A stretch of 64,000 nucleotides of DNA, from assembly GCA_947178105.1 (NCBI GenBank), contig CAMWXD010000008.1, forward strand, positions 1 to 64,000. Direction: 5' to 3'. This document shows, in pieces, positions 5,466-7,183 of the stretch. Below the pieces are notes generated by a model. That model saw only the letters and a list, made by a program, of their open reading frames with translations, was not told where the DNA came from and searched no databases. Position 1 is the stretch's first letter. Each line of letters begins with the position of its first letter. The position numbers and the translations under genes are program-made. Source of the stretch: an uncultured Eubacterium sp. GTDB lineage: Bacteria > Bacillota > Clostridia > Lachnospirales > Lachnospiraceae.

Positions 5466-5673
5466 TTCCTATATTTTCCTTTCCTAAACGTACCATATCT
5501 TTTTCTTCGCATCCCTTACTGCTGTCTGCATGATCTCTGCATTGTTTTTTCTATTTATGGATTATTTTATTACAGTAAAATCCAATTTGCAAGAAAATCT
5601 TAGGAACTATCATCGAACTTATTATCGTGTACACAGAAGCTTCTGAAAAAGCCTTATAAAAATTCTGCTCATA

Positions 5674-5711
5674 ATAAAAGAAAGGATGCCAAATGGAATC
5701 CTCTCTTTTAT
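5674..5711. terminator. Hairpin, terminator-like
   Basis: ATAAAAGAAAGGAT...ATCCTCTCTTTTAT, 13 of 14 pairs. Confidence 0.45.
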
Positions 5712-5745
5712 TACGAGCTCTGCATATGTTACTCCTCTTTGCCAG

Positions 5746-5909
5746 CTAGTGCTCCATCCGCTAGAAATTAGAGTCCTGCACAGTCTGATTCGCGCCATTG
5801 CGTCGTTAAAATTTCTAGCCAATGGTCCACATTGCCGTCGAAATTTTGCCTAGCACTGGTACGAATCAGCCAGCACAGAACTCTAATTTCTGACCGGATG
5901 GAGCACTAG
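5746..5909. repeat. ~165-bp imperfect palindromic element (foldback/MITE-like or large RNA hairpin)
   Basis: Outer 15-bp perfect arms CTAGTGCTCCATCCG (5746-5760) and CGGATGGAGCACTAG (5895-5909). Inner arms AGAAATTAGAG / CTCTAATTTCT, CTGATTCG / CGAATCAG, AAAATTTC / GAAATTTT. Confidence 0.85.
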
Positions 5910-7183
5910 GCTACTGTCATCATCCCTTTTGTATGCAGTTTTTTCCGTTTTCCATACTTATCGATATAGTTGATATAATACGGATACAACCGGATCTCCA
6001 AAATCTCTCCCTGTTCCCTGCCTTCTGCGTGGGTATCCTGCGCACATTCCATATCTTTTAAGTCTTCTTCCTGGCAGACCTCTCCGACCTTTAACCCGTC
6101 GCGGCAGTAAAAGCCGATCGCTTCTAAATACTCGTTTAACGCCTCCAGCAGCTTTGCCTCATACTCAGCTTTGCCTGCGCGCATCCTGCGGTACAGCGCT
6201 TCCACCATCCTGACAATCAGGTCTTCCTGCACGACTCGCACAAATGCCTGCAATACATCCTCCAGCTCAGACCTTGGCGTAAACTGCCTTGCCGTACTGC
6301 GGATATCCCTCTGGTATTGGAAATACATCTTTTTGTATGGGTCATAATCTGGCACACTCTCAAAAAAGCGGTCTAAGACTGCCATATTTGCAAACCGTGT
6401 CACCATCACCTGGATATTGCCGGCTGTAATCGTATATTTCTCTTTATTTTCCGTAATGACAAACGGGTTCTCCGTTTCATCCTTTTGCAGCATCGTTTCC
6501 AGAGAACGGTCTTTGACCCGTACCAACAAGTCGTTAATCTTATCGTTTGCCTGCGCCAGCTTTTTAGACAGGTGAAAGACTTTGCGCTTTTCGTCCTGAA
6601 AGCTTTTCTCTGCCGTATCGTATGCCTGTTTTGTCTCGTCCAGTTCCTTTTGGGCTGCTGTCAGCCTGTTTTCGTATTCCGTATTTTTCTTTTCCAGCAT
6701 ATCGATGCGTGCCAGCAGCTCATGGACATTCGGCGCATCCGGGTCGGGCGCATTGATTTCCTCCAGATACGTGTGCACATCGCGGATTCTTGCCGCAAGC
6801 ATCTGGCTGCTCTTTTTCAGCTCTTCCTTCTGCTTTTCAAACTCTTCGCCGATTAGTGCCTTGATCTCCTGCCCGCGTGCCGCAGAATCGGTTTCCAACT
6901 GGCTGGCCTGCGATACGATCGTTTCACACTGCGAAAAAACAGCACTGCACTGCTCGGATACCTTTTCAACCGCTTCCTTATTTTCTTTCAGCTCCTGATA
7001 GGAATCGCTCATATTATTATCCAATACTTCCTGCGTATCCAAAGCCTGCTGTACTTTTACAAGGATATCCCGGATGCTTTTTTCATTTTTTTCCGACCGT
7101 CTATTATAATGGTCTACCAGCAGCCGCAGCAGCCCGTTGCACTCATCTGATAATACGTATTTCAGGTTTTTCCAAAATCCCAT
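5906..7183 (-). CDS. Coiled-coil protein of unknown function (possibly GrpE-like in part)
   Basis: 425-aa ORF with long heptad-rich region; its stop codon lies inside the palindromic element. Confidence 0.6.
   Translation of the reverse strand: MGFWKNLKYVLSDECNGLLRLLVDHYNRRSEKNEKSIRDILVKVQQALDTQEVLDNNMSDSYQELKENKEAVEKVSEQCSAVFSQCETIVSQASQLETDSAARGQEIKALIGEEFEKQKEELKKSSQMLAARIRDVHTYLEEINAPDPDAPNVHELLARIDMLEKKNTEYENRLTAAQKELDETKQAYDTAEKSFQDEKRKVFHLSKKLAQANDKINDLLVRVKDRSLETMLQKDETENPFVITENKEKYTITAGNIQVMVTRFANMAVLDRFFESVPDYDPYKKMYFQYQRDIRSTARQFTPRSELEDVLQAFVRVVQEDLIVRMVEALYRRMRAGKAEYEAKLLEALNEYLEAIGFYCRDGLKVGEVCQEEDLKDMECAQDTHAEGREQGEILEIRLYPYYINYIDKYGKRKKLHTKGMMTVA

Follow-up and report, generated by a model that had tools for sequence, protein, structure and literature searches.

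The locus lies near the start of a 64,000-nucleotide stretch (the window; contig CAMWXD010000008.1, assembly GCA_947178105.1) from an uncultured Eubacterium sp. of the Lachnospiraceae, where a minus-strand gene for a coiled-coil protein ends against a 164-base palindrome (5746-5909) that is imperfect at its apex. As the first-pass annotation of the letters alone had it, this is an imperfect palindrome of about 165 bp, in which the outer 15 bp pair at 15/15 positions (CTAGTGCTCCATCCG...CGGATGGAGCACTAG) and are followed inward by the paired blocks AGAAATTAGAG, CTGATTCG and AAAATTTC. RNA folding, which had been proposed as a check, gives -82.8 kcal/mol for 5746-5909 against -42.7 +/- 4.0 for 200 dinucleotide shuffles (z = -10.1; 0/200 shuffles reach its energy), with the two strands differing in folding strength. 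Two further claims, namely that the right arm holds the TAG stop of the coiled-coil gene and that the palindrome is too long for a simple terminator, also hold up: the stop belongs to the minus-strand ORF at 5906-7183, and the stem of ~80 bp runs on into CTAG and gene sequence with no T run after the hairpin, so that we reject the reading as an intrinsic terminator. A smaller hairpin at 5667-5719, downstream on the gene's strand, is terminator-like for the coiled-coil gene, and the palindrome is located between it and the stop codon; this smaller hairpin also gives weak chance matches to miRNAs. The features of the locus are:

5746..5909, no strand assigned: whole imperfect palindrome, from CTAG to CTAG (from the sequence and the fold z of -10.1)
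5749..5906, no strand assigned: mobile unit of 158 bp, with GTGCTCC at its start and GGAGCAC at its end (boundaries set by alignment of 64 full-length copies, whose flanks are unconserved beyond the TA)
5747..5748, no strand assigned: left TA, target-site duplication, part of CTAG (copies with TTAG/ATAG...CTAG favor a 2-bp TA over a 4-bp CTAG)
5907..5908, no strand assigned: right TA, target-site duplication, part of CTAG (as for the left TA; orthologous empty site with a single YTAG)
5749..5773, plus strand: left terminal inverted repeat and subterminal arm (family conservation, with a mean column identity of 0.915 over family columns 1-30)
5882..5906, minus strand: right terminal inverted repeat and subterminal arm (complementary to the left end)
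5783..5874, minus strand: apical core, the minus strand being the folding strand (covariance models R1 and R2, below)
5906..7183, minus strand: host coiled-coil gene, its TAG stop at 5906-5908 on the insertion target (ORF; orthologs in genomes G003 and G005 have the same end codons without the element)

The ends of the mobile unit were defined with 64 full-length copies extracted together with their flanks, in which CTAG stands at 51 left and 52 right ends and the flanks are otherwise unconserved. Unbroken CTAG targets leave a 2-bp and a 4-bp duplication indistinguishable; copies with mixed ends, such as TTAG...CTAG (L009, L103, L116 and L145) or ATAG...CTAG, fit a duplication of TA better than one of CTAG, with the element proper starting with G and ending with C. 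Duplication of the TA in a C-TA-G target by such an element thus recreates CTAG at both junctions. Both the target-site duplication (TA within CTAG) and the empty sites expected of a miniature inverted-repeat transposable element (MITE) are found: a repeat in genome G002 has a single CTAG at one locus (L258) and CTAG-element-CTAG at two others (L072, L082), and empty orthologs are seen at L323 and L324. At the window locus itself, the coiled-coil ortholog of G003 reads ...GTA GCT TAG CTCCTG (that is, GTAGCTTAG followed by CTCC), and the window reads ...GTA GCC TAG, element, CTAG CTGGC (that is, GTAGCCTAG[element]CTAGCTGG). The ortholog in G005 also lacks the element, the insertion being specific to the window genome among orthologs, and the TAG stop is older than the insertion. 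The element entered a CTAG formed by the amber stop of the coiled-coil gene, whose stop codon is preserved because both new junctions are again CTAG; the recreated CTAGs could in turn serve as new targets for further elements. The terminal TAG doubles as a neighbor's stop in five further copies, and the window insertion illustrates a route by which elements that target CTAG can enter at an amber stop and leave the protein unchanged.

The MITE interpretation, which the first-pass annotation had offered along with the caveat that a single copy without homologs would speak against a mobile family, is supported by multiple copies in the genome and genus, TA at both ends, empty sites, and non-coding, intergenic copies. 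The window's own genome (a 4.95-Mb draft) carries full-length copies on contigs C8 and C19 that are 96% identical, an internally deleted copy on C9 that retains only the outer arms, and a fourth, diverged copy on C29 (L021, L339) that was detected via the core. The C9 remnant (L009, 5665-5738) is 75 bp long with its junction at a short CACAG repeat, as expected for slippage in a palindrome; one-ended remnants with the terminal repeat alone also occur in genome G004 (L253-L256). BLAST recovered the element in 11/13 genomes of the genus, which is that of Eubacterium plexicaudatum, and in none of 48 genomes of other genera, with full-length relatives also present in named Lachnospiraceae assemblies; a family-wide scan found the exact 15-mer end in 9/397 genomes. 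No match to the window element itself was obtained in BLAST searches of plasmids and phages, and exact 16-mer matches in unrelated phyla and viral contigs were dismissed as chance or coding matches. The window element thus has the multiple dispersed copies and the terminal inverted repeats of a MITE (15/15 outer bp, with ends conserved over copies), contains no listed ORF, and at 158 bp falls within the MITE size range of 50-500 bp. Family copies are intergenic, with the exception of one ambiguous short overlapping ORF (L092). Their orientation relative to genes shows no preference (13 convergent, 11 divergent, and 8 and 8 co-directional), nor is there any bias relative to local GC skew.

Approximately a third of these copies (family A), as estimated by reading, abut the end of a second family, B (AGCGTGTTTGAAAA), across a common CTAG, and further copies adjoin families C, D and E; the pattern counter used in the neighbor analysis undercounts family B. 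Family B (L120, L074, L069, L104; ends AGCGTGTTTGAAAAATGCTTTCC) comprises palindromic, CTAG-bounded MITEs of similar size with IS427-type ends, which lack the common core and often lie end to end with family A. Positions 100-1100 of L258 (G002:C235) hold a transposase gene flanked on the left by a family C end plus a core fragment and on the right by an IS427-type end, an arrangement in which two elements form a chimera about a single CTAG.

We infer that the window element would be moved in trans by the DDE transposase of an insertion sequence that targets TA/CTAG. Autonomous insertion sequences with matching ends were found for the sister families B and C, whose ends have 20-30 bp in common with DDE insertion sequences: IS5/IS427-type elements of E. 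plexicaudatum (L259, L260) have GAGTGTGTCTTAAAA ends and lie at CTAG, and an IS630-type element (L270) carries family C ends. Neither TIR scans nor searches of the genus with the DUF4096, DDE_3 and DDE_Tnp_1 domains (PF13340, PF13358, PF01609) yielded an insertion sequence with the GTGCTCCATCCGG ends of family A. The absence of a partner is weak evidence, as many of the genomes are metagenome assemblies, which lose repeated insertion sequences. By analogy to the sister families, the mobilizing insertion sequence is most likely of the IS630 type. The E. plexicaudatum ASF492 genome (G004:C1) is unusually rich in insertion sequences, with at least 119 DDE_Tnp_1 matches.

The hairpin shows a clear record of compensatory evolution. 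Across 53 aligned copies, 17/50 pairs have pairing-preserving changes on both sides, with 107 double-change cells as opposed to 28 in shuffles (0/500 shuffles as high). The consensus folds better as the reverse complement, the window minus strand, than as the other strand (-77.8 versus -48.1 kcal/mol). We then placed substitutions on a tree by a single parsimony reconstruction of 166 columns, using geometric pairs chosen to avoid bias from the better-folding strand. Internal branches carry 40 changes from one Watson-Crick pair to another, 23 to G-U, 7 to A-C (p=0.005) and 20 to other mismatches, and on terminal branches the corresponding numbers are 8, 65, 60 and 46. In this one reconstruction, landed copies decay with neither strand constrained and ancestral lines kept their pairing, and the wobble pattern favors folding of the window minus strand only.

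Elements of the same size and with the same ends in other genera, whose interiors have diverged, revealed a motif, GC(A/T)AGGC...AACG, within an apical core of ~50 nt (CAAGGC...AACGC on the window minus strand). The census relied on covariance models, since a regular expression misses most copies. Model R1 recovers the core in 32/295 genomes of the order (20/130 genera) and 24/399 genomes of the phylum (19/268 genera), and several genomes hold at least 10 copies; these counts are floors, only 10-14 candidates per genome having been scored. The window copy, itself in the R1 training set, scores 74.5 bits (E 2.8e-20). Model R2, built from 36 cores without the window family or Streptomyces, nevertheless places the window family within the core group (L077, 45.8 bits, 1.7e-11; L008, 30.9 bits, 8e-7) and scores Streptomyces cores at 40-60 bits. 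The window copy itself obtains 26.7 bits (E 3.9e-7) in a 2-kb search with filters off, but a 64-kb search under default filters does not pick it up; it is therefore a member that has decayed somewhat. Searches with natural elements from Clostridia hit plasmids of Streptomyces across the core (E 2e-6 and 1e-7), and a consensus finds 12 such plasmids. No core was found in E. coli genomes and phages.

Core-bearing elements are mostly hairpins of ~145-170 bp with very different ends, such as AGGAACTGTAAATAA, AGGAAACGATGATTAAT, GAGCCTGTTTACT, TATAGTCAATCAACTTG, TTAGGGATGACGAAATAA, CTAGTACTCTGTAACA and CTAGTGTAGCTGTTTT; those in Streptomyces end in CTAGGGGGTGTCGTTTGGATC or CTAGGGCCTGTCCGGCGGATC, which we take to resemble the ends of Streptomyces IS5-type elements. 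Mean core identity is 77% among 19 elements and 76% between Streptomyces and Bacillota, and their outer arms, at 41-48%, are no more alike than shuffled arms (46%). Two genomes, G064 and G662, carry inverted core doublets ~22 bp apart (L371, L372, L345, L381-L384), and these doublet elements are composite, with ends like TTGTACACTGAGGGTA. In genome G854 (L425, 1501-1643), a core has ~50 extra nucleotides between GATTGA and GACAACGC, possibly an inserted hairpin. Rfam gave no relevant match at the gathering score for the window or for 18 loci with relatives, and motif and keyword searches of the open-access literature, with subscription papers mostly outside their scope, turned up no earlier description of the element or its core. 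Thus, the element is a MITE in which the new part is the core common to different phyla, and it apparently belongs to a large, undescribed group of such elements.

The core behaves as a structure that is maintained on one strand. In alignment A4, 17/19 core pairs change on both sides (155 cells versus 53 after shuffling), and pairing holds in 90% of cells, as against at most 54% when the alignment is slid; every core stem covaries and the loop letters are fixed. Folding is stronger for the core strand than for its complement in 42/43 cases as RNA and 43/43 as DNA. The segment GGAGGAAGGAG / GACTGACGAC pairs, in most families, at every third base only, by G-C or A-U, and these positions covary; by eye, the letters between them, 5'-GA-3' opposite 3'-AG-5', form tandem sheared G.A steps. 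The window's family has an ordinary helix in the same segment (AAAATTTC/GAAATTTT). As the tandem G.A steps exist on one strand only, the complement having T.C mismatches, they are an independent pointer to a single-strand fold, be it of RNA or of single-stranded DNA. The earlier alternative of a structured RNA is accordingly supported by the covariation and the one-strand bias, both of which single-stranded DNA would also explain. Given the random orientation relative to genes and to local GC skew, neither readthrough transcription nor the replication strand can discriminate between the two, and the polarity of transcription or replication lends no support to a core function. The hairpin itself seems to be under selection, because the folded core is common to elements with unrelated ends, from gut Clostridia to Streptomyces. 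We propose that selection would keep the one-strand, rod-like hairpin with its apical core in spreading lineages, and that landed copies would then decay.

Could this instead be an ordinary MITE, with a functionless palindrome and core that became common through recent horizontal spread of a few elements and end swapping, the arms being repaired by template switching? Quasi-palindrome correction is an established mutational process, and families with different ends do abut at common CTAGs, making recombination between them possible. However, repair should also affect landed copies, and the compensated changes number 40 on internal as opposed to 8 on terminal branches; neither the one-strand wobble nor the one-strand tandem G.A steps are predicted by repair. 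Likewise, the core holds at 76-77% identity where the outer arms are at the shuffled expectation, and it covaries in every stem around fixed loop letters. We regard this account as unlikely, without dismissing it.

The one-strand fold could also mean that a Y1/RAYT or IS200/IS605-type transposase recognizes one strand and moves a REP-like hairpin in single-stranded form, in which case the CTAG ends would be cleavage tags and not a duplication: folding on one strand is characteristic of transposition via single-stranded DNA, and the head-to-head core doublets of some genomes recall REP pairs. The long terminal inverted repeats, the 20-30 bp ends that sister families have in common with DDE insertion sequences and the lack of bias relative to local GC skew all go against this, rendering it quite improbable. 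We give even less credence to a 3'-UTR structure recruited by the host for the coiled-coil gene, as an mRNA stabilizer, RNase III site or terminator. A position between the stop codon and the terminator-like hairpin of the gene's strand (5667-5719) would suit such a role, and known MITEs can act in this manner (PMC10969869, PMC2229807), but the insertion is specific to the window genome among orthologs, copies have no preferred orientation relative to genes, and no T run follows the hairpin.

We therefore consider it highly probable that the palindrome is a 158-bp, TA-flanked MITE, mobilized in trans by a TA/CTAG-targeting insertion sequence, which sits in the CTAG of an amber stop and carries a core selected for folding on one strand. 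Since the ends vary between insertion-sequence types, a host factor is the probable partner of the core, and we infer that the strand-specific core, as a functional RNA or single-stranded DNA, probably aids propagation via such a factor. More tentatively, and with a little less than even confidence, we posit a cross-phylum superfamily of mobile hairpins, in which a heritable core of ~50 nt (CAAGGC, tandem sheared G.A steps, a covarying apical stem and AACGC) repeatedly gains the ends of various DDE insertion sequences (IS630, IS5/IS427 and others) and, regardless of the transposase, spreads with the aid of a host factor that Bacillota and Actinomycetota both possess and to which it binds as an RNA or single-stranded DNA ligand. 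The usual view of MITEs is that they are debris, with meaningless filler between two ends that bind transposase; in these elements the filler is the most conserved part, common to unrelated ends and phyla, and selected only in spreading lineages. If this is true, a structured nucleic acid is part of the propagation of bacterial MITEs and its host partner should exist. The core model can also be used to annotate intergenic hairpins of this abundant class.

Among described systems, the nearest is RUP of Streptococcus pneumoniae, a MITE moved by IS630-Spn1 at TA, which is likewise a non-coding, palindromic, intergenic repeat (~100 bp) with a TA target, and whose ends are IS630-like (PMC2229807); among the families here, such a match was found for family C but not for family A. 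The window element differs in its length of 158 bp, in that its own partner insertion sequence was not found, and in having a core common to families with other ends, although the core scans did not extend to RUP. ERIC/IRU and Correia/NEMIS are also intergenic, palindromic MITEs of ~100-160 bp with TA ends, whose transcripts form long hairpins (PMC2229807, PMC10969869), and MITE hairpins that act on mRNA are known (PMC10969869); yet no E. coli genome searched has a core match, and the cited literature describes no cross-phylum core with unrelated ends for them. The REP/BIME elements of RAYT transposases parallel the window element in one-strand hairpin recognition and inverted doublets. However, REP is a tetranucleotide-tagged palindrome of 20-40 bp with a Y1 transposase, from which the window element differs in size and ends, having much longer arms, DDE-type terminal inverted repeats and TA/CTAG flanks. 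Finally, its ends and target fit the MITEs of IS630 and IS5/IS427-type insertion sequences at CTAG/TA targets, but its interior is a conserved structured core rather than deleted transposase sequence.
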